36,927 nt of DNA from positions 1 to 36,927 of the forward strand of contig JAJFGE010000009.1 of NCBI GenBank assembly GCA_021776295.1, in the 5' to 3' direction. Below the pieces are notes generated by a model, which saw only the letters and a list, made by a program, of their open reading frames with translations, had not been told where the DNA came from and did not search any database. Shown here one piece after another: positions 847 to 27,372 of this stretch. Within the stretch, counting starts at the first letter, position 1; every line of letters starts with the position of its first letter. The DNA comes from Hyphococcus sp. (GTDB lineage Bacteria > Pseudomonadota > Alphaproteobacteria > Caulobacterales > Parvularculaceae). The position numbers and the translations under genes were made by a program.

Positions 847-860
847 GTTGCATCCGCAAC
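847..860 (+). promoter_or_regulatory. Operator palindrome GTTGC-ATCC-GCAAC
   Basis: This is a perfect 5-bp inverted repeat with a 4-bp centre and the cleanest copy of a motif that recurs upstream of many genes in this window. An A/T-rich stretch (TTTATT) lies just before it. It sits between the HD-domain gene and the DUF3179 gene, about 170 bp before the latter's start. Confidence 0.6.
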
Positions 861-927
861 TTAAACTCCCTACACTCTCCTCTTAATGGGGTAGTTTTAT
901 TTCTATTTTCCTCATTGTGAGTTTCGA

Positions 928-947
928 GCATCAGTTGCTGATGCATC
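928..947 (+). promoter_or_regulatory. Second operator-like palindrome before the DUF3179 gene
   Basis: Positions 928-944 form a perfect hairpin-capable repeat, GCATCAG-TTG-CTGATGC. Positions 934-947 read GTTGC-TGAT-GCATC, which fits the motif GTTGC-N4-GCA(A/T)(C/T) seen upstream of ubiD and the OsmC gene. It ends about 85 bp before the DUF3179 start. Confidence 0.5.
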
Positions 948-1031
948 TAAAATGCCTTGACTGTCTCGCGGTGGCGGGGCGCTCTATCCTGGAGATGGTT
1001 CAAGGAACATTATGTCGAGGAGCAGTGAACC

Positions 1032-2255
1032 ATGACCGGTGCGGAGCTGATCGCAATCTTAGCGGCGTTGATATTTGCAGCCGCCATACTCCCAGGCACG
1101 CTCGGCGTGTTGTTGATGACGTCGAAAATCGCCGCAAAAGACTGGGGTGCGCGGCTGATTTATCAAAAGGCGATGTGGCTCGCCGGCGCGGCGGCAGCGC
1201 TGATGGCGCTTGGCTGGGGGCTTGCGCTTTCCGCCGGCAATATTTCGCTATTGCTGCTCGGCGCCTCGGCGCTGTTTGGCGGCGTTGCGACCTTTGGCTT
1301 CTTCATGCACACCAAGTTTTTGTTCAAGCCGGTGACCAAGCCACTTTATATGAGCGTTGATGAGGCGATCGAGAAATTCGGCCCCGATGAAGAAGTCATC
1401 GGCGTCATCGATGATAATGGCGTTGCATGGGCCTATGTCGCACGCCTCGCGCGACGCCCGCATATTGTCCAACAGCGCCAGGGCGACAGCCCGTTCATGA
1501 TGACCCACTGCATTCTTGCGCACAGCTCAATGGCCTTTGCGCTCGAAAACCAGTTTTCCGCGCCGAACATCACCATCACCTCGGCGCTCGCCAACAACCT
1601 GGTCTTCTACGAAGAGAATACCAAATGCTCGATTGTCCAGGCGCATAATGGCGCGCCCGGTGGCGGTGCGGCGCTGCGCATGACGCCGACCATTGCGGTC
1701 AGCTTACGAACCTGGAAGGCGGCCTATGGCGACACCAAAGTCTGGCATCGCCACAAGGAATGGCGCGATGAATTTTATCTCAAGCTTCTCGCCCGCGCCG
1801 ATGTCATCGACCCCAACAGCCCGGTGATGGTCTATCCGTTAAAGCACGGTCTTGATGAACGCCTGGCGATGAAATCCATGGTCACCGGTGTTGAAATCAA
1901 CGGGCAATCGCGCACCTATACGCTCGATCATTCACGCGACAACCCGCTTATTCACGACCAAATCGCCGGCGTCGACATTCTCGTTGCTTCCGGGTTTGAC
2001 CTCGACCTCATCCAGGTTTTCGACCGCAATGCGAACGGTAAGGCGCTGACCTTCACGGCGGACAGCGAAAACCATTTCATTGACGACCAGACCCGGTCAA
2101 CGTGGAATTTGCTTGGTGAATGCATTGACGGCGAAATGAAGGGACAAAAGCTGGCGCTCATTGCCCATTACAATAAAATGTTCTGGTATGTTTGGGCCGA
2201 TTATCACCCCAATACCGAGATCTATAATCCAGCAAAGCAAGCTGCCGCCGCTTGA
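1032..2255 (+). CDS. Membrane-anchored DUF3179 domain protein
   Basis: The 407-aa product starts with about three hydrophobic segments (residues 5-30, 47-68 and 72-92). A soluble domain follows with features of DUF3179: a short DDNGVAWAY strand, then a conserved THC-type segment (MMTHCILAHS). DUF3179 proteins have no settled function and are often found near metal- or oxidation-related genes. GAGGAG at 1017-1022 is 9 bases from the ATG, so the start is well supported. The aldehyde dehydrogenase gene begins 12 bp downstream, which implies co-transcription. Two operator-like palindromes lie upstream. The family call is fairly sure; the role in the pathway is unknown. Confidence 0.7.
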   Translation: MTGAELIAILAALIFAAAILPGTLGVLLMTSKIAAKDWGARLIYQKAMWLAGAAAALMALGWGLALSAGNISLLLLGASALFGGVATFGFFMHTKFLFKPVTKPLYMSVDEAIEKFGPDEEVIGVIDDNGVAWAYVARLARRPHIVQQRQGDSPFMMTHCILAHSSMAFALENQFSAPNITITSALANNLVFYEENTKCSIVQAHNGAPGGGAALRMTPTIAVSLRTWKAAYGDTKVWHRHKEWRDEFYLKLLARADVIDPNSPVMVYPLKHGLDERLAMKSMVTGVEINGQSRTYTLDHSRDNPLIHDQIAGVDILVASGFDLDLIQVFDRNANGKALTFTADSENHFIDDQTRSTWNLLGECIDGEMKGQKLALIAHYNKMFWYVWADYHPNTEIYNPAKQAAAA

Positions 2256-2267
2256 GCAAGGTTTAAA

Positions 2268-3773
2268 ATGCCGCCGGAAGGAAATGCACGCGCCGGAACG
2301 ACAACCAAGCCGCGGCGGGTGCGCAATTTTATTGACGGTGCGTATGTTGAAAGCGCTGGCGCTAAAACATTTGAAAGCCGCTGTCCGGCTGATAACGCCG
2401 TCGTCGCCATCGTCGATGAAGCCTCGCGCGCCGATGTTGACCGAGCGGTATCGTCTGCGCGCGCGGCGCTCGGCGGTCCATGGAGCGAGATCAGCCTTGA
2501 TGAGCGCGCCGCTATCTTGCACCGGGTCGCCGACCTTATTGATGAACGCGCGGCGGAGTTTGCAGACGCCGAAATCAGCGATACTGGCAAGCTGATCGGC
2601 CCGACCCTCAAAGGCGAGATACCGCGCGGCGCAATGCAGTTCCGCGTCTTTGCCGATATCGCCAAAGACGGGTTTGCAATGTCTCCGATTGCATCACAAA
2701 CGCCCATGGGCAAGGCCATCAACTATCCCGAACGCGCGCCGAAAGGCGTTATCGCGGCGATCTGCCCGTGGAACCTGCCCTTTGTGTTATCGACATGGAA
2801 AATTGCGCCGGCGCTTGCTTGCGGCAATACGCTGGTCGTCAAACCATCGGAAGAAACGCCGATGACGGCGACGCTGCTCGGCCAGGTGATGAACGATGCC
2901 GGCGTGCCAGCGGGCGTTTATAATGTCGTCAATGGTTTCGGCGCTGGCTCGACGGGCGAGTTCCTGACTGCCCATCCCGGCGTCAACGCCATTACCTTCA
3001 CCGGAGAGACCCGCACCGGCGCGGCGATCACCACTGGCGCCGCCAGCGATATAAAAGATATTTCGCTGGAGCTGGGTGGGAAAAACCCCGGAATAATTTT
3101 CGCCGATTGTGATTTCGACAAAGCGGTTGCGGGAACGGCGGCCTCTGTGTTTCATAATTGCGGGCAGGTTTGTCTTTGTACTGAACGGTTATATGTGGAG
3201 CGACCAATCTTTGACAAATTCGTCACCGCGCTGAAGGCCAAAGCCGAAGCGCTCAATCCCGGCGATCCGCGCGATCCGTCAACGACGCTGTCGCCGTTGA
3301 TCAGCCTCGGCCATCGCGAAAAAGTTTTGAGCTATTTCGAAGCGGCGCGCGCAGACGGCGCAACCGTGGTCACTGGTGGCGGCATTCCGAAAACAGACGG
3401 ACCCTTTTCCGATGGCGCCTGGATCGAACCAACAATCTGGACCGGGCTTTCGGAAGATTCTCGCACCGTCAAAGAAGAAGTTTTCGGTCCGGTCTGTCAT
3501 ATCCAGCCGTTTGATACCGAAGATGAGGCCATCGCCTACGCCAATGACAGCGATTATGGTCTTGCGGCGACAGTCTGGTCAGGCGATGGCGACCGCACGC
3601 GCCGCGTTGCTTCGCGCATTGAGACTGGCGTCGTCTGGGTCAATGGCTGGATGATCCGCGAGCTTCGCTCGCCCTTTGGCGGATTTAAGAAGTCAGGCAT
3701 TGGCCGCGAGGGCGGCGAGTTTTCACTCGATTTCTATACGGAGATTCGCAACGTTTGCGTTAGTGAGGGTTAG
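2268..3773 (+). CDS. NAD(P)-dependent aldehyde dehydrogenase
   Basis: This 501-aa protein is a full-length member of the ALDH superfamily and oxidises an aldehyde to the acid in the cytoplasm. The catalytic residues fall at the canonical positions: Asn169 in CPWNLP, Glu268 in LELGGKNP and nucleophile Cys302 in NCGQVC. The cofactor-binding FTGET motif precedes Glu268 (245 region). The sequence style resembles 2-hydroxymuconic semialdehyde and betaine aldehyde dehydrogenases, but the substrate cannot be read from it. AAGG lies about 6-7 bases before the ATG. It is the last gene of the DUF3179-ALDH unit and converges on the ThDP enzyme gene, with only 27 bp between. It may oxidise the aldehyde released by one of the ThDP decarboxylases in the window. 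Confidence 0.93.
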   Translation: MPPEGNARAGTTTKPRRVRNFIDGAYVESAGAKTFESRCPADNAVVAIVDEASRADVDRAVSSARAALGGPWSEISLDERAAILHRVADLIDERAAEFADAEISDTGKLIGPTLKGEIPRGAMQFRVFADIAKDGFAMSPIASQTPMGKAINYPERAPKGVIAAICPWNLPFVLSTWKIAPALACGNTLVVKPSEETPMTATLLGQVMNDAGVPAGVYNVVNGFGAGSTGEFLTAHPGVNAITFTGETRTGAAITTGAASDIKDISLELGGKNPGIIFADCDFDKAVAGTAASVFHNCGQVCLCTERLYVERPIFDKFVTALKAKAEALNPGDPRDPSTTLSPLISLGHREKVLSYFEAARADGATVVTGGGIPKTDGPFSDGAWIEPTIWTGLSEDSRTVKEEVFGPVCHIQPFDTEDEAIAYANDSDYGLAATVWSGDGDRTRRVASRIETGVVWVNGWMIRELRSPFGGFKKSGIGREGGEFSLDFYTEIRNVCVSEG

Positions 3774-3788: not shown

Positions 3789-3800
3789 GCTTGCGGCCAC

Positions 3801-5687
3801 TCACTCATGCCACGGCGCAGCATCGGCGCCAGGTCCGCGTTTGGCGATAACCACATCGAGCACAAAAGACCGGCCCTCACTTCCGGCGCGCACCGCACGC
3901 GCCAGCGCCGCCGCCAAATCCCCCGGGTCGGTAACGCGCTCGCCTTCAACCCCGTAACCGGACGCCATCGCCACATGATCGATCGCCGGGTCGTCAAGAT
4001 TTATGCCGATATACCGTCCGGTCTTTGCGCCGCGACCTTTAAGGCCGGCAATCGCCCAGCGGTTGGCCTGATAGGCGCGGTTGTTAAAGATGATAACGAC
4101 AATCACCTTGTTGTGACGCTGCGCGGTCCACAACGCTTGCAAGCCAAACTGGAAACTGCCGTCGCCAACCAGCGCGTATACGGATTTACTAGGCGCTGCG
4201 AATTTTGCGCCAAGCGCCGCGCCGACGCCCCAGCCAAGGCTGCCGCCGGATGAAATCAAGTGCCGCCGGCCGCCATTGTCCTGATCGAACTGAACATGGT
4301 CCCAGATATACCGGTCGGAACTGACGCCTTCCGTAACAACGATAGCGTCAGGGTCCATCGCGCGGTCAATTTCTGCAGCCAGCCGCTCCGGCGCGATGGG
4401 CACATCATCCCAGACTTTGCGCAAAGTTTCGATAATCGGCTCACGAAGCTTCTGCTTCAGCGCCTCGCCTTCATGCCGGCGGCGTTCAATCAACGCGCCA
4501 TCAAGCGGCATCGCGCTGAGACGTTGGTCGATACCGGCCAGGGCGAGACGCGCATCGGCGTAAATCAGATGGTCCACCGGATAGCCGCGCGACAGATGCT
4601 CCTCACGCACGCCAATTTCGATAATCTGCGCTTGTTCTGGAATCAGCGGATGGCCGCGGCGCGCAAGCGACAGTCGCGAAGCGCCGGCCAAAACCACAAG
4701 GTCAAACGGTGTTTCCGGGCGAATGCGGGCGCGCATCGCGCCGAGATATCGCGGATGGTTGGAGGCAAAGCCCATCGCCGAACGGCTCGACGATGTATCG
4801 CCGCTTACCACCGCACCAAGGCGATCAGCAATCGCGGCCAGCTCTTTGAGCCCGCCCCAGCGCGGCAATTCAGCGCCGGCGACGAAAAGCGGATTACGCG
4901 CCCGCGCCAACATTGCCGCGGCGCGCTCAATATCATCACTGCCCGGATGAATTGGCCCCGCCGGCGCCGAGCGCGCCGCGGGAATAATCCGCGCCTTGGC
5001 GGTTTTTCCGCTCCAGACATCTGCATTAACGCCGAGAAAAACCGGGCCCGGCGGCGTCGCTGACGCCATGCGCATGGACCGGCGCAGCGAGGTTGCGAGA
5101 TTGTCGCGATTGCTCGCCCGGAATGACAGCTTGGTGTAAAGCTCCGCGATCGATTCCACTTTTGCGGTCTCCGTAAAGACACCAAGATTTTCGCCGTTGC
5201 TGGCGCTAAAGCCGACCGAAATCACCATCGGCGAATTATCCGCATGCGCATTGACGATAAGGCCGAGCGCATTGGCCGCGCCGGTGACCGAATGGACGTT
5301 TACGAAAGCAGTCTTGCCGGTAACACGCGCATAACCATCCGCCATCGCCACAAGCGGGCCTTCATGCAGGCCAAGCACATATTGAATATCCGGATAATCA
5401 ACCAGCGCATCGACAAACCCCGCCTCATAGGCGCCGGTATTGCCAAACACATGGCTGACACCCCAGGCGCGCAAAGTCTCGCAGGTTATTTCCCCGCCGG
5501 TGGCGTTTTTAAGCGTGATAAATTCACCGCCCGGCGGCAGCGCATCAATATCCGCGTTTTGCGCAGAAGCGGCGCCAACCAGCTGGCTCGCCGCCGCAGC
5601 ACTCACCCCCGCCGCTTTCGTCAGAACGAGAAATTGGCGCCGCGAGAGGTCGCCATTCACCAGACCAAATGTCGCCTCACGGAGCAT
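3801..5687 (-). CDS. Tat-exported ThDP-dependent decarboxylase-like enzyme
   Basis: This is a 628-aa enzyme of the acetolactate synthase/benzoylformate decarboxylase superfamily. The catalytic Glu of the PYR domain is E109 in LHEGPLVAMADGYAR. The ThDP/Mg motif is GDGS at 508-511, with its Asn pair (FNN) at 535-536. Unlike typical family members it starts with a textbook Tat signal: SRRQFLVLT at residues 15-23, a hydrophobic segment and an ASAQ cleavage region near residue 43. The longer reading frame begins at 5774. I chose the ATG at 5687 because AAGAGGA precedes it by about 8-9 bases. It follows the TonB receptor gene on the same strand, 94 bp downstream, with a hairpin between. Likely chemistry is cleavage of a 2-oxo acid or carboligation; the substrate is unknown. 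Confidence 0.85.
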   Translation of the reverse strand: MLREATFGLVNGDLSRRQFLVLTKAAGVSAAAASQLVGAASAQNADIDALPPGGEFITLKNATGGEITCETLRAWGVSHVFGNTGAYEAGFVDALVDYPDIQYVLGLHEGPLVAMADGYARVTGKTAFVNVHSVTGAANALGLIVNAHADNSPMVISVGFSASNGENLGVFTETAKVESIAELYTKLSFRASNRDNLATSLRRSMRMASATPPGPVFLGVNADVWSGKTAKARIIPAARSAPAGPIHPGSDDIERAAAMLARARNPLFVAGAELPRWGGLKELAAIADRLGAVVSGDTSSSRSAMGFASNHPRYLGAMRARIRPETPFDLVVLAGASRLSLARRGHPLIPEQAQIIEIGVREEHLSRGYPVDHLIYADARLALAGIDQRLSAMPLDGALIERRRHEGEALKQKLREPIIETLRKVWDDVPIAPERLAAEIDRAMDPDAIVVTEGVSSDRYIWDHVQFDQDNGGRRHLISSGGSLGWGVGAALGAKFAAPSKSVYALVGDGSFQFGLQALWTAQRHNKVIVVIIFNNRAYQANRWAIAGLKGRGAKTGRYIGINLDDPAIDHVAMASGYGVEGERVTDPGDLAAALARAVRAGSEGRSFVLDVVIAKRGPGADAAPWHE

Positions 5688-5710
5688 GCGCTGTGTCCTC
5701 TTCCAAAGGC

Positions 5711-5751
5711 CAAAAAGTAAACGCCGGGAGCGATTTTCATCATTCCCGGCG
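5711..5751 (-). terminator. Terminator or attenuator hairpin between TonB receptor and ThDP genes
   Basis: CGCCGGGA (5722-5729) and TCCCGGCG (5744-5751) form a perfect 8-bp stem with a 14-base loop. Read on the minus strand, the stem is followed by TTTACTTTTT. It could reduce read-through from the receptor gene into the ThDP gene. Confidence 0.5.
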
Positions 5752-5781
5752 CCAAGCCAACCCCCATCGGTCAATTGCGGA

Positions 5782-8493
5782 TCAGAATTGTTTCTGGAAT
5801 GTCACGCCCCACATTCGCGGCGGGCCGAACAAGGCTTGCGCGGTGCCGCCGCCGGGGAAACCGCCAACGCCCCCGCCGGCGCCGTCAATGCCGAAGGTCC
5901 GGATGATCGGATTGAACCGGCGGAACGATGCATAACGCTCATTGGTGAGATTGCGCACCCAGAAGAATGCCTCCCAGCCATTTTCGTGGCTGACATAGCC
6001 AAGCCGGGCGTTGAGAAGATTGTAAGCGCCCTCGGTCACAACATCTTCAAGCGGACTGCCAACCTCGACCAGTTCGTGCAGGATTGAACCGGTGTAAGAC
6101 CAGCTAAGCCGCATCACCATATCGCCATTGTTGGTGACCGGGCGTTGATATGTCACCGCTGCATTGGCCGTCACTTCCGGCGCCAGCGGAAAACGCTGAC
6201 CGATAAAGCCTTCGCCAACCACCTCTTCAATGCCGCCGGTTTGATCGGCAATCGGAACGCCGCTCTGGATTTCGCTAAACGCGGTGCCAACGCCGCCAGT
6301 GAAGGTCAACTCATCCGTTAGCTGAGCAAATATGTCCGCCTCAAAGCCCCAAACTTGGGAATCCGGGACATTGAGAATGATTATGCCGGTCGCAAGGCGG
6401 GTGATGCCCTGCTGGCGGTCATTATAGTCTGTAAGATAGCCGGAAAGATTGACCCGCGCGCGACCGCCGGCAAAGCTTGTTTTAACGCCACCTTCATAGA
6501 CATTCACCGTTTCCGGATCAAAATCAATATTCGCCGGCGCAGCGTTCGGGTCGGCTGAGCGGGCGATAATTTCAGCGATGATCTCATCTTTGGTCGGCGC
6601 CCGACCCAGGCTTCCTGTCAGCGAGCCGATAACGCCGCCAACATTGGCCGGGCTGCCAATAATGAAGCCGCGAAATGCAGTAACATTTTCACCCTGGGTG
6701 ATATCGAACTGAAATCCGCCGGATTTAAAGCCGTGTGAATATTTCGCATAGGCGGTGATGTTGTCATTGGGCTGCCAGGTCAAAGACGCGGTGCCGGAAA
6801 ACTCATTGTCGCTGCGCGACCGCATAGTCGTGAATGACGGCCGCAGGATATTGATCATCCCGACCTGATCCATATCGAGGTCTTTGTCTTCCCAGGTGTG
6901 GCGAATACCGCCGGTCAGGGTGAGGGTTTCCGTCAGGCGGAAATTGGAGTGCAAGAACACCGAGATGGATTCTGTTTTTAGCGTTCCCTCTTCACGCACG
7001 CCAATCGTATCGGGCGCGCCCGCCGCCGTTACCGGACCCAGCTCATTTTCAAATCCGAAGGGCAGGAAGAAATCTTCCGCCTCGCCGCCAGGCAGGAAAC
7101 GGCCCGCGGCAATGAGGTCGGGGTTGTGACACCCGATGGTCGATTCATTGGCGCCAAACACTGTCACGTTCTCATTGAAGACGCCGTTCGCATTAAGGTC
7201 GAAATCCCAAATCGGCAGGCCGTCTGCGTCAAAGCCCGACAAGCGCGACGTCGTTTCAAATGGCGGCGGCGGCGGGAAGCCACGGAAGGTCGAGGTAGTT
7301 ACGCCAGCGGTACACCCAGCCAGAATATCCTGTGGGAAGAACCGTGTTTCCGAACTCGAATCCTGATTTTGGGTCAGGTAAAAGGCGCCAGCAATAAAAT
7401 CGAGCCGTTTTCCGGCCGGAGACGCAAGCCTGATTTCGCCGGACCACTGATCAAGGTCTTCCTGCAAAAACGTATCGGACAGGCGTTGGCGCGTGGTGTC
7501 GCCGTCAAACAGGCTGACAATATCATTGGCGCGATAGGCGCCGACGCCGGTCAGCAAAAATTCGCCGGGCAGGTCGAGATTGAATTCCAGCGACGTGCCC
7601 CAAAGATCGCGGTTGGAAGTCGAAGCAGAATCGATATCGACAATGCCTTCCGCAAGGTCAACGAATGCTGGTTGCTTTAAGTCGTTGGGATCGTCGTTGA
7701 TCTGACGGACAAAATCGCGCTCTTCCTTGAAGCGGTCTATCGACCAGTAGAGTTCAAGGCTATCGCTCGGCCGCGCAATCGCCTGGAACCGGCCAGACCA
7801 ATTGTCCTCGCCGTTAAAGCGGCGATTATCGAACGCATTTTCAATCCAGCCATCCTGACGCTCAACAGCAATGGTCGTGCGCGTCAACAGCTTTTCGTTG
7901 ATCGGCACATTAACGGCGCCGGCGGCATATCCGCGCTCATAATTCCCGGCTTCGAGCTTTAATTCCCCGCCAAACTCTTCGGTCGGCTTTTTGGTTGTGA
8001 TGTTGACCGCACCGGCGATTGTGTTGGCGCCAAAGAATGTTCCTTGCGGTCCGCGCAAAACTTCAACTTGCTGCACGCCAAACAGACCTGTGTCAAAGGA
8101 TGCAGAGCGCCCGGTCAAAACGCCATCGACATAGACCGTCGCACCGGAAGCCTCGCCAACCACGAACTGGTTAGTAATGCCGCGTACGGAGAAGTTTCCC
8201 AACACCGAGCCCTGATTGAGGAAGCTAAAATTCGGCACGCTCTCAACCACATCCGCAAGCGATGTCGCACCCGAACGCTTCAGATCAAGCTCGCTTTGAG
8301 CGGCAAGAGAGATCGGCACATCTTGCGCGGATTCTTCGCGCCGTTGCGCGGTGACAGTAATGACGTCGCGCGCCGCCGCCGCGCGCGCGGAGGCGTCGCT
8401 GTCCTGGCCCAATGCCGCCGGCGCCAGCGCCAACGCAATCACCAGCGCCGAGGCCCCGGCCATAAATATGGGTTTTTTGATCTGCCGTTTCAT
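5782..8493 (-). CDS. TonB-dependent outer-membrane receptor
   Basis: This 903-aa protein imports a ligand across the outer membrane using TonB energy. After a signal peptide (MKRQIKKPIFMAGAS... to about residue 30, ending PAALGQ) comes a TonB-box-like stretch (VITVTAQRREES). The plug domain follows (SLADVVESVPNF, VEVLRGPQGTFFG), then a long beta-barrel ending in the terminal aromatic of VTFQKQF. The frame is open from 8580, but the ATG at 8493 has GGGAGG about 7 bases upstream and begins a proper signal peptide. The sequence resembles the many receptors that sphingomonad- and Hyphomonas-type bacteria use for organic substrates rather than siderophores. An operator-like motif lies about 114 bp upstream. 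The ligand is unknown, but its position suggests uptake of the substrate of this island. Confidence 0.92.
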   Translation of the reverse strand: MKRQIKKPIFMAGASALVIALALAPAALGQDSDASARAAAARDVITVTAQRREESAQDVPISLAAQSELDLKRSGATSLADVVESVPNFSFLNQGSVLGNFSVRGITNQFVVGEASGATVYVDGVLTGRSASFDTGLFGVQQVEVLRGPQGTFFGANTIAGAVNITTKKPTEEFGGELKLEAGNYERGYAAGAVNVPINEKLLTRTTIAVERQDGWIENAFDNRRFNGEDNWSGRFQAIARPSDSLELYWSIDRFKEERDFVRQINDDPNDLKQPAFVDLAEGIVDIDSASTSNRDLWGTSLEFNLDLPGEFLLTGVGAYRANDIVSLFDGDTTRQRLSDTFLQEDLDQWSGEIRLASPAGKRLDFIAGAFYLTQNQDSSSETRFFPQDILAGCTAGVTTSTFRGFPPPPPFETTSRLSGFDADGLPIWDFDLNANGVFNENVTVFGANESTIGCHNPDLIAAGRFLPGGEAEDFFLPFGFENELGPVTAAGAPDTIGVREEGTLKTESISVFLHSNFRLTETLTLTGGIRHTWEDKDLDMDQVGMINILRPSFTTMRSRSDNEFSGTASLTWQPNDNITAYAKYSHGFKSGGFQFDITQGENVTAFRGFIIGSPANVGGVIGSLTGSLGRAPTKDEIIAEIIARSADPNAAPANIDFDPETVNVYEGGVKTSFAGGRARVNLSGYLTDYNDRQQGITRLATGIIILNVPDSQVWGFEADIFAQLTDELTFTGGVGTAFSEIQSGVPIADQTGGIEEVVGEGFIGQRFPLAPEVTANAAVTYQRPVTNNGDMVMRLSWSYTGSILHELVEVGSPLEDVVTEGAYNLLNARLGYVSHENGWEAFFWVRNLTNERYASFRRFNPIIRTFGIDGAGGGVGGFPGGGTAQALFGPPRMWGVTFQKQF

Positions 8494-8606
8494 CGTAATC
8501 CTCCCTGGTGCGCAAAGTTCGTTTAGCCCGCCGCACATTCTCCCACCGCTACACAACATGAAATGCCAACAGCGTCGCAATCTTGCGACAAGATATCAAC
8601 AATATA

Positions 8607-8620
8607 CTTGAAACTGCAAC
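8607..8620 (-). promoter_or_regulatory. Operator-like half-conserved motif upstream of the TonB receptor
   Basis: On the minus strand this reads GTTGC-AGTT-TCAAG. It is preceded by TTACAAATG, matching the layout of the ubiD site (TTACAGTTG then GTTGC). One arm is conserved; the other is degenerate (TCAAG instead of GCAAC). Confidence 0.45.
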
Positions 8621-11164: not shown

Positions 11165-11178
11165 GTTGCAACTTCATC
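11165..11178 (-). promoter_or_regulatory. Operator-like motif upstream of the GMC operon
   Basis: On the plus strand this reads GTTGC-AACT-TCATC, one base from the ubiD-site form GTTGC-AACT-GCATC. It contains the self-complementary core GTTGCAAC. It lies about 85 bp before the small-subunit start and just downstream of the FG-GAP gene's stop codon. Confidence 0.45.
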
Positions 11179-13961: not shown

Positions 13962-13997
13962 CGGCGCCCTTTTATGGTTGAGTGAGGAAAGGCGCCA

Positions 13998-14873: not shown

Positions 14874-14904
14874 ATTTTGCGCTCCTCTTATCTGGTACGC
14901 AGCG

Positions 14905-15232: not shown

Positions 15233-15246
15233 ATTGCAGTTGCAAC
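15233..15246 (-). promoter_or_regulatory. Operator palindrome upstream of the small secreted protein gene
   Basis: On the minus strand this reads GTTGC-AACT-GCAAT, nearly perfect dyad symmetry. CATAAAATA lies directly before it on that strand and can serve as a -10 element. It is 53 bp before the start codon, the same distance as in the ubiD promoter. Confidence 0.6.
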
Positions 15247-15519: not shown

Positions 15520-16236
15520 TTAACGCAATTTCAAAAGAATGTCCGCAAGCGCTTCAGGCTGAGACAGCATCGGACTATGTGCGGCGTTCAACTTAAATAC
15601 TTGTTCGCAGGGCGTCGCGGTATGCATCGCGCGCTGCGTTTCAGGATTTAACGCCCGGTCGTTAGCACACTCAATATAATAGCGCACAATCTGGCCGAAG
15701 TTCTCCGGGCTGATATGAACCGCTTCCATCGGCGGCGCCATTGGCTCAGGTATAGACAAAAGCCCACCGAGCATACTATCCGTATACGGCCCATCATGGC
15801 AAAAGGCATCACCGAATTTGTCATCGCGCAAGGTTGCGAAATGGCGGTCCGGCGACCAGTCCACATTATCATAGAGCGCGCTTTTGGCGTCCAGTTTGGA
15901 GAAATCCCGAATATTTTGACCGTCGCCCAACAAAAACGCAGCGATATAAACCAGCTTAGACACTTTGTCGGGCCGCCACTCAGCCGCTTGTGATATCACC
16001 GCCCCACCCATCGAATGGCCGACTAAACTGACCGGCTCGTCCGCCTTGTCGATTAGCGCACAAACGCTTTGCGCATAGGCCGCAAGCGAGCAGTCCTCGC
16101 CGCGCAATGCGCGCCGCCCATGGCCCGGCAGATCGTCTGCGATAACGCTGCAACCGGCCTGCCTCAGTATAGGAATGAGTTTATACCACGACCAAGCGCC
16201 ATGAAACGCGCCATGCACAAGAATAATTGTCGTCAT
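15520..16236 (-). CDS. Alpha/beta-fold hydrolase (esterase type)
   Basis: This 238-aa hydrolase has the complete catalytic triad: nucleophile Ser75 in the elbow GHSMGG, Asp193 in ECANDRAL and His220 in LNAAHSPMLSQPE. The oxyanion-hole segment is LVHGAFHGAWSWYK (6-19), followed by DLPGHG. The short length and these motifs place it with the methylesterase/hydroxynitrile-lyase-like subfamily (SABP2-type), which cleaves small carboxyl esters. GAGAGGGCGG precedes the ATG. Its start lies 22 bp after the ubiD stop, so the two are very probably one operon. It may release the acid that UbiD then decarboxylates, or act on a downstream ester or lactone. No signal peptide, so cytoplasmic. Confidence 0.88.
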   Translation of the reverse strand: MTTIILVHGAFHGAWSWYKLIPILRQAGCSVIADDLPGHGRRALRGEDCSLAAYAQSVCALIDKADEPVSLVGHSMGGAVISQAAEWRPDKVSKLVYIAAFLLGDGQNIRDFSKLDAKSALYDNVDWSPDRHFATLRDDKFGDAFCHDGPYTDSMLGGLLSIPEPMAPPMEAVHISPENFGQIVRYYIECANDRALNPETQRAMHTATPCEQVFKLNAAHSPMLSQPEALADILLKLR

Positions 16237-16257
16237 CCGCCCTCTCCGCCTGCAACG

Positions 16258-17827: not shown

Positions 17828-17841
17828 GATGCAGTTGCAAC
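17828..17841 (-). promoter_or_regulatory. Operator palindrome at the ubiD promoter
   Basis: On the minus strand this reads GTTGC-AACT-GCATC, 53 bp before the ubiD start. Directly upstream on that strand is a plausible promoter, TTGTCG-17 bp-TACAGT, whose -10 ends two bases before the palindrome. A protein bound here would therefore cover the transcription start. Confidence 0.6.
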
Positions 17842-17842: not shown

Positions 17843-17864
17843 AACTGTAACAGGTGGTACAGTT
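17843..17864. promoter_or_regulatory. Candidate TetR operator AACTGTA-N8-TACAGTT
   Basis: This is a perfect 7-bp inverted repeat with an 8-bp centre, in the interval between ubiD and the divergent tetR-ubiX genes. It overlaps the predicted ubiD -10 and spacer and abuts the shared GTTGC palindrome. Its size fits a TetR dimer site. Confidence 0.5.
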
Positions 17865-17915
17865 TGCGACAAGCGCAAAAGCATTTTCCGACCCAATGGT
17901 TGCCGGTTGGGCGCT

Positions 17916-18053: not shown

Positions 18054-18698
18054 ATGCTCTGCAAAACCGCGAAGTCCTCGCGAACGCTGGTCAACAAACG
18101 CGACATCATTTTGAACGCGGCGGCGATGTTGTTTCTGAAACAGGGGTATGGCGCGGCCAGCATCAACAAGCTGATTACCCAGATCGGCGGCTCGAAAGCG
18201 ACGGTCTATGCTTATTTCGAAAACAAGGAGCGGTTGTTTGCAGCTGTAGTTGAAAGCATCGTCGATGAAGTGCCGGTGTTCATCAATGATGTGCAGCTTG
18301 AAGACCTAGAGATGCGCGACGGGCTGATTGCGATCAGCGAACGGTTATTGGAAATTGCAACCTCGCCGCGCCATCTCGCGCTGGCGCGGCTGGTGATTGC
18401 CGAAGCCGATAAGTTTCCCGAAATCGGCCGCATCTATTATGAGCGCGCGCCGCGCCATATCTGTGACGTCTTGGCCGCATTTTTGAAGGAGCAGACAGCC
18501 AAGAGCGGGATTAAGATTATTCGCCCGCAAGAGCTGGTTGAGAGTTTCACCGGCATGGTTTTGCATCACCAACTATTCCGGCAATTCTGCCTTGACGCCT
18601 CGCCGCCATCGTCAGCTGAGATCCGCCGGCTTGCAGTGCGCAACGCCAATATGCTGATCGCGATGATTAACACCGCGCCGGCGGGATCGCGCACATGA
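18054..18698 (+). CDS. TetR/AcrR-family transcriptional regulator
   Basis: This 214-aa protein has the N-terminal TetR DNA-binding domain: NKRDIILNAAAMLFLKQGY (14-32) and the helix-turn-helix around ASINKLITQIGGSKATVYAYFENKERLF (35-62). A helical ligand-binding domain follows. TetR proteins usually repress and are released by a small effector, often a pathway substrate. It is divergent from ubiD and overlaps ubiX by 4 bp (ATGA), so it most likely controls both. The best operator candidate is the inverted repeat at 17843-17864. The Shine-Dalgarno sequence is weak, so the exact start is less sure, but the domain begins close to this ATG. Confidence 0.88.
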   Translation: MLCKTAKSSRTLVNKRDIILNAAAMLFLKQGYGAASINKLITQIGGSKATVYAYFENKERLFAAVVESIVDEVPVFINDVQLEDLEMRDGLIAISERLLEIATSPRHLALARLVIAEADKFPEIGRIYYERAPRHICDVLAAFLKEQTAKSGIKIIRPQELVESFTGMVLHHQLFRQFCLDASPPSSAEIRRLAVRNANMLIAMINTAPAGSRT

Positions 18699-20159: not shown

Positions 20160-20648
20160 CTACTCCGTACCTTGCCGGCGCAACAGCGCTTCTTCTACAT
20201 GGCGCAGTGAGCGTAGCAAGGCGGTCTTTTCGCGCGCGCTCATCGCATTGGTGAGTGTCTGTTCAAAGTCGCCAAGGCCTGGCATGACCTCATCAATCGC
20301 TTTGCGACCGCGCGCCGTCACCTGGAGGTGAAACGCCCGCCGGTCGGTATCGCTCTGGCTTCGCTTGATGAATTTTAGCCGCGCCAGGCGCTCAATCATC
20401 GGCACCAAAGTTGAGCGGTCGACATTGGCAAGGCGCGCAAGGTCCATCTGGAAGCACCCGGAGTGTTCGGCAATTAACATCAAAATTGAAAACTGTCCCG
20501 GCGCGAGGTCAACAGCGCTGAAGATGCGCGAAAGTTCCTTGACGACTTCCGCGCCGACCCGCCGCAACTGATAGCCGACAAGCCCCTCTAAGTCGCGGCC
20601 TGGCGCGGCCGTGTCGTCAGATGTTTGTAGATGCGCCGTTTTGCCCAT
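20160..20648 (-). CDS. MarR-family regulator (first copy)
   Basis: This 162-aa protein fits the MarR family. It has an N-terminal helix (LVGYQLRRVGAEVVKELSRIF), then the winged helix with MDLARLANVDRSTLVPMIERLARLKFIKRSQSDTDRR cut as DNA-recognition helix plus the wing DRRAF. MarR dimers bind palindromes and respond to phenolic or acyl-CoA ligands. A GTG at 20651 is also in frame, but the GGAGGAG just upstream fits the ATG at 20648 better. It is divergent from the second ThDP enzyme and co-transcribed with the exporter. A strong palindrome lies in the shared 94-bp promoter gap, so it probably controls both directions. Confidence 0.88.
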   Translation of the reverse strand: MGKTAHLQTSDDTAAPGRDLEGLVGYQLRRVGAEVVKELSRIFSAVDLAPGQFSILMLIAEHSGCFQMDLARLANVDRSTLVPMIERLARLKFIKRSQSDTDRRAFHLQVTARGRKAIDEVMPGLGDFEQTLTNAMSAREKTALLRSLRHVEEALLRRQGTE

Positions 20649-20666
20649 CACTCCTCCTACTACAGA

Positions 20667-20685
20667 TAGTTGGTATTGCCAACTA
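20667..20685. promoter_or_regulatory. Palindrome TAGTTGG-TATTG-CCAACTA, probable MarR operator
   Basis: This is a perfect 7-bp inverted repeat with a 5-bp centre in the divergent promoter of the MarR-exporter operon and the ThDP gene, about 19 bp before the MarR start. It shares the GTTG/CAAC half-site idea with the other motif but has different spacing and inner bases. Confidence 0.6.
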
Positions 20686-22439: not shown

Positions 22440-23747
22440 CTACATCAAACCCATCTTCATTGGCAGCCAGGTGACGATCGCCGGAACTAATGTCAGCAGC
22501 AACACCCGCAATAAATCAGCGATAAAGAACGGCGTCACGCCTTTGAAGATTTCACCGAGCGGGACGTCCTCCATCATGCCGTGCAGCACAAACACGTTGA
22601 TGCCAATCGGCGGCGTGATCATGCCGATGCCGGAAATCATCACCAGCATCACCCCCCACCACACCGGATCATAGCCGAGCCCGATGACCACCGGCAGGAC
22701 AAAAGGCAGCGTCACCACCAGCACCGCGAGAGATTCAAACACCGCGCCGAGCAAAAGATACATCACGTAAAGGCTGACAATGACCGCCAGCGGCGGCATG
22801 TTCAGCGATTGAATGCCGCCAACCAGCGCTTGTGAAAGCCCGGAGGCGGCAAGAAAATAGGTCATCGCAAAAGCGCCGATAACGATGACATAGATGATGC
22901 CGGCATTGCGGGCGGTATCGAGCGCAACCTCGCCGAATATTCCGGGCTTGAGGCGCCCGCGTGCGAGGCAAATTAAAAATGCACCGCAAGCGCCGACCGA
23001 GGCGGCCTCGGTGACGGTAAAGACGCCGCCATAAATTCCGGCGGTGACAATCAGCCCAAGGAGGATAACCGCCCAGGAACGACGAAGCGCTGATTTGCGC
23101 TCTCCCCAACCGCGTCTCGGCGCCGCTGGCGCAGCTTCCGGGCGGTAGCGGGCATAGAGCGCTGCGGCGGCGAGCTGAAACAGGGTGGCGATTATTCCCG
23201 GAACAGCCGCGGCGGCAAACAGCGTGAGAACATTTAATTCAGTTAAGATCGCATAGATGACAAGGATCAGCGAGGGCGGAATAATTACACCGAGCGTGCC
23301 GCCAGCGACAATGGCGCCGGCGGCAAAGCTCTTATGGTAGTTTCTCGAAAGCATCTCCGGCAGCGCAACCCGCGTCATCGTCGCCACCGTCGCAATCGCC
23401 GAGCCGCATACGGCGCCAAACAGAGCGCAAACGCCAATCGTCGCCATCGCCAACCCGCCGCGCCGGTGGCCTAAAAAGGCGTTCGCCAACCGGTAAAGGT
23501 CCTGAGACAACCCGCCCGCAACAGCAAAGCCGCCCATCAAAATAAACAGCGGGATAATCGCAAAATCGAGGCTGGTAATGGCGGCAATCGCCTCCACGCC
23601 AAGCGTTGCAACGCCCGGACCGACTCCAGCGATGGCCGCGAAGGTTAAAACCCCGGCAATCCCCATCGCCGCGCCGACCGGCGCATGCGCGGCGATGAGA
23701 ATGAACATCGCCAGCAGGCCAAGGATCGCAATGATAATCGGGTCCAT
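22440..23747 (-). CDS. dctM: TRAP transporter large permease (DctM type)
   Basis: The 435-aa product is the ion-coupled permease of a TRAP transporter, with about 12 hydrophobic segments. Family features include the start IAILGLLAMFILIAAHAPVG, the LFILMGGFAVAGGLSQDLYRLA region, GAVCGSAIATVATMTRVALPEM, and the C-terminal ITPPIGINVFVLHG motif, which is highly typical. It is the third gene of a dctP-dctQ-dctM operon, 4 bp after dctQ. Together they import an organic anion such as a carboxylate or sulfonate using the sodium gradient. All three components are present and intact. Confidence 0.94.
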   Translation of the reverse strand: MDPIIIAILGLLAMFILIAAHAPVGAAMGIAGVLTFAAIAGVGPGVATLGVEAIAAITSLDFAIIPLFILMGGFAVAGGLSQDLYRLANAFLGHRRGGLAMATIGVCALFGAVCGSAIATVATMTRVALPEMLSRNYHKSFAAGAIVAGGTLGVIIPPSLILVIYAILTELNVLTLFAAAAVPGIIATLFQLAAAALYARYRPEAAPAAPRRGWGERKSALRRSWAVILLGLIVTAGIYGGVFTVTEAASVGACGAFLICLARGRLKPGIFGEVALDTARNAGIIYVIVIGAFAMTYFLAASGLSQALVGGIQSLNMPPLAVIVSLYVMYLLLGAVFESLAVLVVTLPFVLPVVIGLGYDPVWWGVMLVMISGIGMITPPIGINVFVLHGMMEDVPLGEIFKGVTPFFIADLLRVLLLTLVPAIVTWLPMKMGLM

Positions 23748-23751
23748 CAGA

Positions 23752-24273
23752 TTACGCCTGCGTTGGTTGTGGGGGCGATTGCGGCTTAAGGATTTTCATA
23801 ATCTCCGTGAACAGAATAAAGCCCTGAATCGGCGCGCAGGCGAGAAGGATGGCCGCAGAAAGCCACATTGTCGGCGCCGTTGGAAGGCGCAGGATCAGCG
23901 TTGTCTGCACCCGTGTTTCTACCGCATAGAGCGTGAATTGCCATGCGATAATGGCGATGAACGCCAGCAGAATAAAATGTCCGAAAACATCGAGCCATGC
24001 GGCAGCTTTGGGGTTTAAAAATCGCCCGAACATGGTCACGCGAATATTTTGACGACCTATAAGGATCGCCGGGAAAAGGCTGGCGACGATAACCGAAATC
24101 ATCAAGCCGGAAACATCTTCAAGGCCGTGGATGGGTTTTGAAAACCACCATCGCGCGAGACCGTCGGCAACGATCAAAAACGCCTGTAGCAAAAGGAGAG
24201 CGACGCCGAGCCTGGCGATCATGATCGAGGCGCGCTTAATCGCGCTTTCAATTGTTTCAATCGTCAAAACCAT
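23752..24273 (-). CDS. dctQ: TRAP transporter small permease (DctQ type)
   Basis: This 173-aa integral membrane protein has four hydrophobic segments, the usual topology of DctQ, which binds the large permease and stabilises it. Segments include ASIMIARLGVALLLLQAF, GLMISVIVASLFPAILIG, the pair around AAAWLDVFGHFILLAFIAIIAW, and WLSAAILLACAPIQGFILF. Its start overlaps the stop codon of the binding-protein gene by one base (TGATG), and the large permease starts 4 bp after its end, giving tight translational coupling. Confidence 0.88.
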   Translation of the reverse strand: MVLTIETIESAIKRASIMIARLGVALLLLQAFLIVADGLARWWFSKPIHGLEDVSGLMISVIVASLFPAILIGRQNIRVTMFGRFLNPKAAAWLDVFGHFILLAFIAIIAWQFTLYAVETRVQTTLILRLPTAPTMWLSAAILLACAPIQGFILFTEIMKILKPQSPPQPTQA

Positions 24274-25322
24274 CAGCGCGAACCGCCCGGCGCCGGCGCA
24301 GCATCACCCTCTGCGCGAATCTCAGCCAGAATTTCGTCAAACCGCTCAATTAAAATATCATGATCGGGGCTGCGGGCGCGCCAGTCCTCGGCGGCGGCGG
24401 CGAACCGCTCGCGCCACAAGGCCGCTTCTTCGCTATCGGATTCGACAAACTGGCGTTGCGGATCGCGCCGGGCTTCGTCCATGGCCGCGGCCGCCGCGCC
24501 ATTCATGGCGTTCACCATCCGCCGAATTAACGGCTCTCCGCTAAGCTCATCAATCGCCGCGCGCGCCTTTGGCGATAGCGCCTCATAAACATCGCGGTTC
24601 ATCGCAATGATCGCCGGTGCAAAAGTTATCGCCTGGTCCACATGCACGTCCGTCGCGCGCATAATGCCGACCGGTTTGACACCGTGCCAGCTGAACAGCG
24701 CGCCGTCGATCAGCCCGCGGCTGAGGCTTTCGGCAACCTGGGTCGTAGTGACGCCGCCGACCGGCGTGGCGCCCGCCTCCTCCAGCATCCGCGCCTGCAG
24801 ATAGGTGACGGCGCGAATCTTTTTCCCCTTAAGCGAAGCATTATCTTCGTAGGCAAAGCGCAGATGAAACCGATATGGCGGCGAGACATAAAGCGCCAAG
24901 GGTTTTATATCGTCAAAGCCTTTCAGATAACCACGCTCATAAAGCCGCCAGAACGCCAGCGACATCTCCATCGGGTCGGAGGTTTTCAGAGGAATTTCAA
25001 AAAAATCCGTATTCGGAAAGAGGTTCGGCGTATTGCTCGGCAACATCCAGGTGATGTCGAGAATACCCTGCTTCAACATCCAATATTGCAGCTTTCCGCT
25101 GCGCCCAAGCGAGCCGCCCGGATAGAGCTTAATCTCTAGCGCGCCGCCGGAGGCCTTCGTGACCTCATCGGCCCAGGGTTGCATCGCCGCGCGCACCGTC
25201 ACGGTTCTGGCCGGTACGCTAACGCCAAAACGCAACACCTCGCCGCGCCCGTCGCCAAGCATGGCGGCGGCGAAAACCGCGATGGCAAACAGCGTCTTTA
25301 TCGGTGAAAACATCTCTATCAA
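24273..25322 (-). CDS. dctP: TRAP transporter solute-binding protein (DctP type)
   Basis: This 349-aa periplasmic protein captures the solute and delivers it to the DctQM permease. It starts with a Sec signal (KTLFAIAVFAAAMLGDGRGE). DctP features follow: LRFGVSVPARTVTVRAAMQPWADEV cut around residues 29-53, EIKLYPGGSLG, and the central KGKKIRAVTYLQARMLEEAGATPVG, whose Arg in the (I/V)R(A/V) motif is the usual carboxylate-binding residue. This supports an organic acid ligand. A GTTGC-type palindrome lies 60 bp before the start. The gene is divergent from the second MarR regulator. The ligand is unknown. Confidence 0.93.
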   Translation of the reverse strand: MIEMFSPIKTLFAIAVFAAAMLGDGRGEVLRFGVSVPARTVTVRAAMQPWADEVTKASGGALEIKLYPGGSLGRSGKLQYWMLKQGILDITWMLPSNTPNLFPNTDFFEIPLKTSDPMEMSLAFWRLYERGYLKGFDDIKPLALYVSPPYRFHLRFAYEDNASLKGKKIRAVTYLQARMLEEAGATPVGGVTTTQVAESLSRGLIDGALFSWHGVKPVGIMRATDVHVDQAITFAPAIIAMNRDVYEALSPKARAAIDELSGEPLIRRMVNAMNGAAAAAMDEARRDPQRQFVESDSEEAALWRERFAAAAEDWRARSPDHDILIERFDEILAEIRAEGDAAPAPGGSR

Positions 25323-25381: not shown

Positions 25382-25395
25382 ATTGTAACTGCAAC
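25382..25395 (-). promoter_or_regulatory. Operator palindrome upstream of the TRAP operon
   Basis: On the minus strand this reads GTTGC-AGTT-ACAAT, preceded by the A-rich ACAAAACTA. It is 60 bp before the dctP start, close to the spacing in the ubiD, small-protein and OsmC promoters. Confidence 0.5.
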
Positions 25396-25526: not shown

Positions 25527-25553
25527 GCCGCTGCTGATCGGCAACTCTTATCC

Positions 25554-26102
25554 ATGGGAACTGCGTTGAAGAAAAAATCCACCCAAACGCCATCCACGAG
25601 CGCTGCGCAAAACCCCTACCCGGTGAGCGAGCCGCTCGACCTTGCCCATCACATGCCGTTCTTGTTGAGCGAAGTTGCGCGGATGTTGTCGATCGGCGCT
25701 TCACGAACCTTTCAAAGACAGTTTGGCCTCGGCGTTCGCGAATGGCGGGTCCTTGCCATTCTCGGCGACCAGGGACCGGTCAGCGCCGCGGCGATGGTTG
25801 GCCCCGCCGCGTTTGACAAAGCAACCGTCAGCCGGGCGATCAACACACTTGAGGCCAACGGTCATGTGGAACGCTTGCCTGACGAAAATGACGGACGCAA
25901 ACAATTGGTGCGGCTCACCGCATCCGGCGTGAAGCTGCATGACCGGATTGTTCCGATCGCCAAAATGCGCGCCAAGGTGTTGGAATCGGCGTTAACCGCG
26001 CAAGAACGCGTGCTGTTTTTTGCGGCCATAGAAAAGCTCAAGACACAAGTTGAATGGCTCGCCTCCGAAGAGCGCAACAATGCACTGCTGTCCGAAAAAT
26101 AG
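25554..26102 (+). CDS. MarR-family regulator (second copy)
   Basis: This 182-aa protein has a MarR winged-helix domain: LGVREWRVLAILGDQGPVSA, then KATVSRAINTLEANGHVERL as the recognition helix and DENDGRKQL as the wing. The frame stays open to 25401 upstream. I chose the ATG at 25554 because the earlier codons run through palindromic promoter sequence and do not match the family; no clear Shine-Dalgarno is visible, so the start is uncertain. The N-terminus has a Lys/Ser/Thr-rich tail of about 20 residues before the domain. It is divergent from the TRAP operon and is one of three regulators here that could bind the shared GTTGC-N4-GCAAC motif. Confidence 0.87.
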   Translation: MGTALKKKSTQTPSTSAAQNPYPVSEPLDLAHHMPFLLSEVARMLSIGASRTFQRQFGLGVREWRVLAILGDQGPVSAAAMVGPAAFDKATVSRAINTLEANGHVERLPDENDGRKQLVRLTASGVKLHDRIVPIAKMRAKVLESALTAQERVLFFAAIEKLKTQVEWLASEERNNALLSEK

Positions 26103-26125
26103 CTGCGGCGTTCACTGGCAAATTT

Positions 26126-27313
26126 TTATACGCTCACAACAACTGGATTGCTCGCCCTTAACGCGGCGTGCAAAAAGCATGTCTGCTCGCCCATCTGAAC
26201 CAGCTTTTGATTATGCGCGAGGTCTTCGCCGGATGACAGATAGACATGGGTGACAATCGGAAAAGCCTCCGCCGCGCCAGTCTCCAGCGACGGCGCTGAC
26301 GCGCGAAACCGGGTCAGTTGAATGAGTTCGTATGACTGTAAATCCTGTTTGACGATCTGCGCATAGCGCCCGAGCTGCGTCATAAAGCAGAAAGCAACGC
26401 CGGCGGACAGATAGTCGAGACCACTTGGCGCGCGTCCCTGCCCGCCACGATGGACCGGGTCGTCGCCGAAAAACTGAAACACGCTGCCAATCGGTTTGAA
26501 CAACTGAATGCGCACGTCAAACAGGCCGTTCTTGGCAATTTTCAAAACCCCGCGCACATGCAAAATGCGCTTTTGTTCTGACTTCAAGCTGCTGCCAACG
26601 CCGCCTTCAACATCAAACAGCTGTTCCGCCGCCGACACCTTGCTCAAAATTGGAATGCCGTCGACCTCGCCGGTAATCGGCGCAATAAGATCGAAGTCGC
26701 CGCCTGGCGCCGGCAAGATATCCGCCATGGTCGGCTTGACGCCATCGACCGGCGCCAGATCGCCGTTCAGATGCGTGGAAAATTCGCTGACTAATTCCTT
26801 GCCCAGAAAAGCTGATGCTGGCGAACAGCGCACACCGGCCTCGGCAAGCGCTTTAAGCGCCGCGTCAGTAATCCCGTCGGCACTGACATGTAACTCCGCA
26901 GGCAGCGCGCCGCCAGTCATCGTGCCGCGCAGCGCGGATCCTTCCATCGTATAGAAATTGTCGAGCGTGCATTGGAGGTTTTCGAGCGCCACGCCCTGGC
27001 TCTGCACAATCGCGCGCAGCTTCGATGCAAATGACATCACCATGCCGGAAGTAAAGAACGCCAGCGGGAATGGCGCCAGATCCGTACCGTTAAGGTAAGG
27101 CCCCTCGTCGCAAGTCAGCCGCCATGTTGTGCTTGCGCCGGCTGCGCCGGCCGCGCCGGTGTGGACAAGTGCTTCTTTTTGCATGCCTTCAAGCGAGCGG
27201 GATTTGACAACGATGAACGCCTCATCCGCTTCCGAAAGGTCCGCCGGCGCCACCCCGTCAAAGGACGCTTTATAGGCAAGCGGCGCCGCTAAACTCTCAA
27301 TAGATGGGGACAA
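26126..27313 (-). CDS. Tandem OsmC-like domain protein
   Basis: This 395-aa protein appears to contain two OsmC/Ohr-type domains. The second (about residues 250-395) has both expected Cys: Cys309 in SAGVAFCFMTQ at the start of the long helix, and Cys379 in EQTCFLHAAL. The first (about 30-180) has the matching segment APFPLAFFTSGMVMSF, where the helix Cys is missing, and only the resolving-type Cys163 (VRCSPASAFL). OsmC/Ohr proteins reduce organic hydroperoxides, so only the second half looks active. The start codon is TTG at 27313, supported by AAAGGAG 7 bases upstream. A GTTGC-type operator lies 46 bp before it. It converges on the second MarR gene. Confidence 0.72.
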   Translation of the reverse strand: MSPSIESLAAPLAYKASFDGVAPADLSEADEAFIVVKSRSLEGMQKEALVHTGAAGAAGASTTWRLTCDEGPYLNGTDLAPFPLAFFTSGMVMSFASKLRAIVQSQGVALENLQCTLDNFYTMEGSALRGTMTGGALPAELHVSADGITDAALKALAEAGVRCSPASAFLGKELVSEFSTHLNGDLAPVDGVKPTMADILPAPGGDFDLIAPITGEVDGIPILSKVSAAEQLFDVEGGVGSSLKSEQKRILHVRGVLKIAKNGLFDVRIQLFKPIGSVFQFFGDDPVHRGGQGRAPSGLDYLSAGVAFCFMTQLGRYAQIVKQDLQSYELIQLTRFRASAPSLETGAAEAFPIVTHVYLSSGEDLAHNQKLVQMGEQTCFLHAALRASNPVVVSV

Positions 27314-27358
27314 ATCGACGCTCCTTTGGGGTTGCTTCCGCCATCTTAGGCAGATTTA

Positions 27359-27372
27359 GATGCAGATGCAAC
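27359..27372 (-). promoter_or_regulatory. Operator palindrome upstream of the OsmC-like gene
   Basis: On the minus strand this reads GTTGC-ATCT-GCATC, preceded by TTAAGAATG, the same layout as the ubiD site. It is 46 bp before the TTG start codon. Confidence 0.55.

Follow-up and report, generated by a model that had tools for sequence, protein, structure and literature searches.

Copies of one palindromic sequence stand upstream of several transcription units in a gene island on contig JAJFGE010000009.1 of Hyphococcus sp., which was analysed over its whole length of 36,927 nucleotides (the window) and encodes, among others, a UbiD protein, a TRAP transporter, a TonB receptor and three regulators (two MarR proteins, MarR1 and MarR2, and a TetR protein). 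A single operator common to several of these units is well supported by the sequence comparisons, and the predicted regulon appears real by every computational test run. This operator, approximately TAGTTGCANNTGCAACTA in full, very probably belongs to MarR2, which would repress about six units until a ligand releases it. The host genome comprises 3.08 Mb on 186 contigs and is 85.5% complete; the window is one contig and represents 1.2% of it. Close relatives of its ubiD (81-97%) were found in five of 61 other genomes of the family, and the gene order of the island is maintained in all island-bearing relatives over the parts present on their contigs. The relatives are Alphaproteobacteria M_MetaBat.60 (M25; G025), Marinicaulis sp. 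OFTM183 (M33; G033), OFTM16 (M34; G034), OFTM304 (M31; G031), Parvularcula sp. UBA11161 (UBA11161; G003, P03), and the metagenome-assembled genome OFTM124 (contigs O124a and O124b). In the last, two contigs (L017, L019) carry overlapping, sequence-divergent pieces of the ubiD island, perhaps from two strains in one bin.

The initial annotation had listed nine copies of a GTTGC-N4-GCAAC palindrome, and a renewed scan of the window found every coordinate correct: relative to GTTGCNNNNGCAAC, the site at 847 has no mismatch, those at 934, 15195, 15233, 17828 and 27359 have one, and those at 8607, 11165 and 25382 have two. This pattern was set aside because the shuffles and a reversed control indicated that it is too loose: with up to two mismatches it shows no excess in the window (30 matches against a mean of 28.2 in 100 shuffles, 39 of which reach 30), and with up to one mismatch, where the window accounts for 10 of the 145 matches in the genome, it is not commoner genome-wide than its reversed control (145 versus 184). 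Two further bases common to the intergenic sites of the window yielded a sharper motif, GTTGCA-N2-TGCAAC (GTTGCANNTGCAAC), which has 11 matches in the window with up to two mismatches (mean 1.88, maximum 7 in 60 shuffles) and five with up to one (mean 0.18, maximum 2, again in 60 shuffles). Ten of the 11 are intergenic versus 0.8 expected, intergenic DNA making up 2719 of the 36927 bases by the gene calls made in this analysis. Across the genome the sharper motif has 131 matches with up to two mismatches, against 85 for its reversed control, and the genomic rate predicts 1.46 matches in the window versus the 11 seen (Poisson P ~4e-7, a value that is partly circular, as the window itself served to sharpen the motif). 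With up to one mismatch, the window holds five of the genome's 13 matches; among the 120 sharp-motif matches outside the window, genomic context was examined for the eight at this level, all of which overlap an open reading frame (ORF) of at least 60 aa, two near its 5' end. The concern raised with the initial annotation, that the motif might be equally common in other intergenic or in coding DNA, was thus not borne out. The pattern RGTTGCANNTNCAW, which was derived from the window, has eight matches in the genome, six of them inside the window (control 3), and nine genomes of the same genus without a close ubiD contain 0, 2, 2, 2, 2, 4, 5, 5 and 8 matches, suggesting that the numbers outside the island are background. 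Inspection of 12 places with this pattern across genomes revealed no further regulon member beyond UBA11161 C295 (a DUF3179 promoter); of the others, nine lie in longer ORFs, G018 C129 overlaps just a 60-aa ORF beside an unrelated gene, and G031 C268 lies between genes, where no ORF of 50 aa or more overlaps it and nothing evident ties it to the regulon.

In the nearest three relatives, the columns of the sites are identical at 298 of 308 positions, versus 1795 of 2591 in the remainder of the same upstream DNA (the match at 8937 is left out of this count). Sites also recur where the flanks no longer align, namely at ubiD, the small-protein unit, the TonB receptor, TRAP/marR and DUF3179-ALDH (ALDH, aldehyde dehydrogenase). 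The island piece of UBA11161 contains five sharp matches with up to one mismatch in 20 kb (shuffle mean 0.03), M31 three (0.08), one of them in dctM, and O124a two (0.02); unlike the P value for the window, these counts are not circular. Two sites each precede DUF3179 in the window, M25 and M34. In UBA11161 the DUF3179-ALDH unit is located on a separate contig and was found by a genome-wide pattern search; it displays a perfect site at -184, as in the window, and further sites GTTGCTATTGCATC at -97 and GTTGCTGGTGCATC at -77. Between the TRAP genes and marR2 a site is present in all six sequences, in five with up to two mismatches and in M25 with three. Of the seven units that the initial annotation had assigned to one operator, six are firm (DUF3179-ALDH, TonB, small-protein, ubiD, TRAP and OsmC; Table 1), whereas the GMC unit is weak in the host genome: its site at 11165 has no counterpart (up to two mismatches, within 350 bp) in five of six relatives, and a perfect site, 51 bp ahead of this unit, exists in UBA11161 alone. 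The site at 15195 has no counterpart in M31, UBA11161 and O124. The upstream DNA of MarR1/ThDP2, TetR-UbiX, SDR, TauE and YeiH, in the window and its relatives, contains no conserved shared site of its own, tetR having one just as the intergenic site common with ubiD; therefore, the island is not wholly under the shared operator.

Table 1. Predicted regulatory sites, regulators and transcription units of the island (positions in the window)
Feature	Position	Strand	Remarks
Operator GTTGCATCCGCAAC, 185 bp before DUF3179 start	847..860	+	14/14 in M25 and M34 at -184/-186; UBA11161 perfect at -184
Second operator GTTGCTGATGCATC of DUF3179-ALDH, at -98	934..947	+	14/14 in M25 and M34
Operator of TonB receptor (and ThDP enzyme behind)	8607..8620	-	6/6 sequences: window, M25, M33, M34, M31, UBA11161
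Weak candidate, GMC small subunit/GMC dehydrogenase	11165..11178	-	perfect site at -51 in UBA11161
Second, genus-level site of small-protein unit	15195..15208	-	identical in M25, M33; 10/14 in M34
Operator of small-protein/substrate-binding-protein/CMD unit	15233..15246	-	8/8 sequences with region, 1 mismatch each
Operator of ubiD, just 3' of -10 hexamer	17828..17841	-	7/7 sequences with ubiD upstream DNA, 1-2 mismatches
Operator between TRAP (DctPQM) and MarR2	25382..25395	-	up to 2 mismatches in window, M33, M34, UBA11161, G031; 3 in M25
Operator of OsmC-like gene	27359..27372	-	1 mismatch in window, M25, M33, M34, G031; 2 in G018; 3 in UBA11161, same place
MarR2, MarR-family, 182 aa from likely ATG	25554..26102	+	most likely binder of shared operator (predicted)
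TetR, AefR-like C-terminal domain	18054..18698	+	own dyad
Second dyad AACTGTAACAGGTGGTACAGTT, core TGTAMC-N4-GKTACA, likely operator of divergent TetR gene	17843..17864	.	core in 7/7 sequences
MarR1, Saro_0803-like MarR	20160..20651	-	own dyad
Third dyad AGTTGG[TC]ATTGCCAACT, likely MarR1 operator, MarR1/ThDP2 divergent promoter	20668..20684	.	
Putative ubiD promoter TTGTCG - 17 bp - TACAGT	17844..17872	-	layout visible by comparison
Unit: DUF3179 protein, ALDH	1032..3773	+	
Unit: TonB receptor, then ThDP enzyme	3801..8580	-	
Unit: small secreted-type protein, substrate-binding-like protein, CMD-family protein	13401..15180	-	
Unit: ubiD, alpha/beta hydrolase	15520..17775	-	
Unit: TRAP transporter DctP, DctQ, DctM	22440..25322	-	
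Unit: OsmC-like protein	26126..27313	-	

Further matches were rejected as operators: those at 19530, 20171 and 36180 are coding, that at 34777 is coding and not retained in M25, and that at 8937 is conserved but lies inside the remnant of a gene intact in M25. This remnant (8600-9033), which we take to be amidase-like, is a short broken piece, and the M25 copy is open over ~400 aa between GMC and TonB.

The distance from site to start codon, given initially as 46-60 bp in four promoters, came out close to that range (52 bp for 15233 and 17828, 59 or 68 bp for 25382 with TTG or ATG as start, and 45 bp for 27359), and the -10-like hexamers reported there are present, the one at 17828 (TACAGT) doubling as the right arm of a TetR-type dyad. 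At ubiD, the layout CTTG..-17-TACAGT is seen in the window, M25, M33, M34, M31 and O124a, with TACATG in UBA11161, and the operator starts 2 bp past the -10; a -10-like sequence also precedes the site at the small-protein unit (TAAAAT), TonB (TACAAA) and OsmC (A-rich). A site directly after such a hexamer would cover the transcription start, the starts being inferred. We infer that a MarR2 dimer would sit on GTTGCA-N2-TGCAAC, over the start just 3' of the -10-like hexamer, and that bound MarR2 would block transcription of DUF3179-ALDH, TonB-ThDP, the small-protein unit, ubiD-hydrolase, TRAP and the OsmC-like gene until a pathway substrate or intermediate, probably an aromatic acid, frees the operator. 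The TetR protein, via its own dyad, may add local control at ubiD/tetR-ubiX, and MarR1 at ThDP2/marR1. Since the site of one repressor would stand before about six units, these genes are probably co-induced by one, probably aromatic, compound.

The assignment to MarR2 draws in part on the operators of its homologues. MarR2 scores above the cut-offs of the Pfam models MarR (40.4 bits, cut-off 24.6) and MarR_2 (41.8, cut-off 27) and below the equivalog cut-off of HpaR (TIGR02337; 43.8 versus 121.2 bits), and, as is characteristic of the family, a palindromic site stands in the promoter of its gene or in the divergent one next to it, namely the 25382 site between DctP and MarR2. Homologues with 30-38% identity occur in 138 of 249 genomes of the order (E <=1e-15), and from their matches 32 loci were selected (16 top matches and 16 chosen to spread over genera). 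The sequence GTTNCANNTGNAAC is present with up to one mismatch in 23 of the 32 (mean 1.1, maximum 3 in shuffled loci) and exactly in 17 (none in shuffled loci). An HPPD gene stands beside the MarR gene in exactly these 23 loci (its identity was confirmed with Pfam in one of them), while the nine loci without HPPD have no GTTNCANNTGNAAC; the loci span ~1.5 kb on each side, and an HPPD gene farther away would be missed. In a control of 11 distant-ubiD-homologue loci (105 kb), GTTNCANNTGNAAC had no exact and three one-mismatch occurrences. The HPPD-linked operator reads TTAGTT-[GTA]CA-N2-TG-AACTAA and is located in the HPPD promoter in 23 of the 32 loci; the frame TTAGT..CA..TG..ACTAA is common to all, the island sites fit the frame of the HPPD group (TTAGTNNCANNTGNNACTAA), and L105, from one genus, displays exactly TTAGTTGCATCTGCAACTAA, the island motif itself. 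The seven MarR2 sequences group together (100/100) in a 51-row tree, where they fall with the HPPD-linked proteins and apart from MarR1 (100/100), although the inner forks are weak (80/92). Unlike its HPPD-linked kin, MarR2 has no adjacent HPPD gene, HPPD being missing from the gene list of the window. G018, which belongs to another genus, has kept UbiX-MarR2-OsmC with a site ~53 bp before OsmC, and no close relative of UbiD, TetR or MarR1 was found there. We predict that GTTNCANNTGNAAC is a general operator for the HPPD-adjacent MarR group across the order.

Two other contexts of MarR2 and its homologues were seen by eye. In G018 (L055, 12846-19141), UbiX-MarR2-OsmC lies beside proline racemase-, dihydrodipicolinate-synthase- and amino-acid oxidase-like ORFs. 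Four loci of one genus, g27 (L041, L046, L047 and L053), contain MarR2 homologues without HPPD and without the operator and may use another site; an FAH-like ORF is present in L047, and a glutathione-transferase-like ORF lies near the homologue in L041, L046 and L047.

Several points weigh against MarR2 as the repressor of all these sites. The HPPD-linked sites mostly read GTTTCA or GTTACA, not GTTGCA, so that the family layout rather than the same word is shared; the presence of the site may be tied to HPPD and not to the MarR protein; and the HPPD-MarR pair of the host itself uses a different operator, TTAGTAACA.. The tree offers MarR1 alone as an alternative MarR group and places MarR2 at the end of a long branch. 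The OsmC site of G018 could be due to chance, because the 40 kb around its MarR2 contain two sites versus a shuffle mean of 2.17. As the likely start of MarR2 is at 25554, the 25382 site lies ~160 bp upstream and may serve the TRAP genes alone. Finally, the distances of the two DUF3179 operators from the start codon indicate that not all sites have one layout.

The last point bears on the possibility that MarR2 binds the sites but activates some of the units, or competes with a silencer. Activating MarR proteins exist and are mentioned in PMC9613470, and the two DUF3179 sites, together with a possible second TonB layout, lie farther upstream; however, in the ubiD, small-protein, TonB and OsmC promoters the site comes immediately after the -10-like hexamer, where a repressor usually sits, and we regard activation as rather unlikely.

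Binding of the shared operator by TetR or MarR1 is improbable in our judgement, even though both are encoded in the island and have close relatives in island-bearing genomes, because a distinct conserved dyad marks the divergent promoter of each. The TetR-type dyad (TGTAMC-N4-GKTACA, 7/7) is placed in the ubiD promoter between its -35 and -10 elements and includes the latter. The MarR1 dyad, AGTTGGYATTGCCAACT, is clean in the window, M25, M33, M34 and M31 and imperfect in UBA11161 (five clean of the six with a MarR1 gene); it is absent from O124a, whose locus also lacks MarR1. MarR1 upstream DNA has no shared GTTGCA site in any of six sequences, O124a has kept the shared sites although its locus is without MarR1, and G018 has kept MarR2 and the OsmC site without close relatives of either TetR or MarR1. 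TetR and MarR1 thus each seem to own a dyad, which leaves the shared operator to MarR2: of the three candidate binders named in the initial annotation (both MarR proteins and TetR), the MarR protein at 25554-26102 is favoured.

A binder encoded elsewhere in the genome, e.g., an HPPD-linked MarR paralogue acting on both kinds of site, is very improbable. The host does possess an HPPD gene of its own, on contig C33 with a second MarR, and the operator there (TTAGTAACATGTGTTACTAA) shares the frame TTAGT..CA..TG..ACTAA. It differs, however, from the island operator at two positions per half (TTAGTAACA versus TAGTTGCA) in five of five testable genomes, those of M25, M33, G018 and G031 being like the host's (UBA11161 is at a contig edge); moreover, the sites are concentrated in the island, with six of the eight RGTTGCANNTNCAW matches and only 0-8 matches in the nine island-free genomes of the genus. 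That the sites are chance or compositional matches, or parts of extended promoters, is hardly credible: the loose form is at chance level in the window and genome-wide not above its reversed control, and two of the 11 sharp matches are demonstrably not operators, but the sites are conserved against diverged flanks, recur in diverged relatives and include the DUF3179 site on another contig.

With MarR2 as the preferred binder, its origin can be sketched tentatively, in a scenario that we doubt slightly more than we believe. MarR2 might have arisen as a paralogue of the HPPD-linked MarR, both coexisting with insulated operators (TTAGTAACA-TA-TGTTACTAA at HPPD, TAGTTGCA-NN-TGCAACTA in the island), at least six island promoters might have gained the new operator, and the ubiD promoter might respond to two regulators together, with TetR placed between its -35 and -10 elements and MarR2 covering the transcription start. 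The most interesting feature of the system is this naturally occurring pair of related MarR proteins in a single genome, whose predicted operators are distinct and would be separable.

The ALDH scores above the cut-off of a 2-hydroxymuconic semialdehyde dehydrogenase model (737 versus 693), and UbiD and UbiX score above the cut-offs of their models. Taken with the TRAP carrier, the TonB receptor, the GMC dehydrogenase and the ThDP enzymes, these scores suggest that an aromatic or unsaturated acid is broken down. The regulon would turn unassigned island genes into one testable circuit, in which the compound that releases MarR2 is likely the island substrate or an early intermediate, and it could reveal what the UbiD/TRAP/TonB island of Marinicaulis-type marine bacteria feeds on. 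Two features of other genes in the window may be added. The ThDP enzyme at 3801-5774 has an apparent twin-arginine-type signal (SRRQFLVLTKAAG) near its N-terminus, recognized by eye, which would place a thiamine enzyme outside the cytoplasm. The region 28685-36633 holds a pair of unusually long ORFs (1232 and 1412 aa) without a Pfam match, which are 89% and 94% identical in M25 and have no match in the pieces of other relatives examined.

Neither the motif nor the island was found described in the literature, which was surveyed mostly by title; the proposed regulon is new, but its type is well known. The operator marO of E. coli MarR is of the TTGC-N4-GCAA type, and this MarR is just a distant relative of MarR2 (5h3r, E 0.00086). 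The nearest relative of MarR2 with a solved structure is IadR (MarR_73) of Variovorax paradoxus (PDB 7KFO), matched at the sequence level across residues 30-144 with E 1.5e-16. IadR represses an aromatic catabolic (auxin-degradation) locus and is released by indole-3-acetic acid (IAA) (PMC9613470). That this relative senses an aromatic acid fits an island for aromatic acids and proves nothing. IadR exerts local control from a 24-bp site between iadR and iadA, whereas MarR2 would control about six units through one operator. The HPPD-linked MarRs of the order differ similarly, as they sit beside one tyrosine-catabolism gene, whereas the gene for MarR2 belongs to a UbiD/TRAP/TonB island in which about six units have sites; HmgS, a MarR predicted for hmgAB in Alteromonadales (PMC5343134), may be comparable to these HPPD-linked MarRs. 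MarR1, in turn, has as its best NCBIfam model Saro_0803 (79.8 bits, below the cut-off of 200), which in Novosphingobium is a resveratrol-responsive repressor of nov1 whose site overlaps the -10 box; its repeat, GCAATA-TATTGC (PMC10046596), is unlike the AGTTGGCATTGCCAACT of MarR1. DesR of Sphingobium sp. SYK-6 (PMC6888825) is a MarR repressor of several aromatic-catabolism units including desR that carry similar inverted repeats, with three units and repeats such as GTTTGTGTCACATAC to set beside the about six units and the one operator of MarR2.

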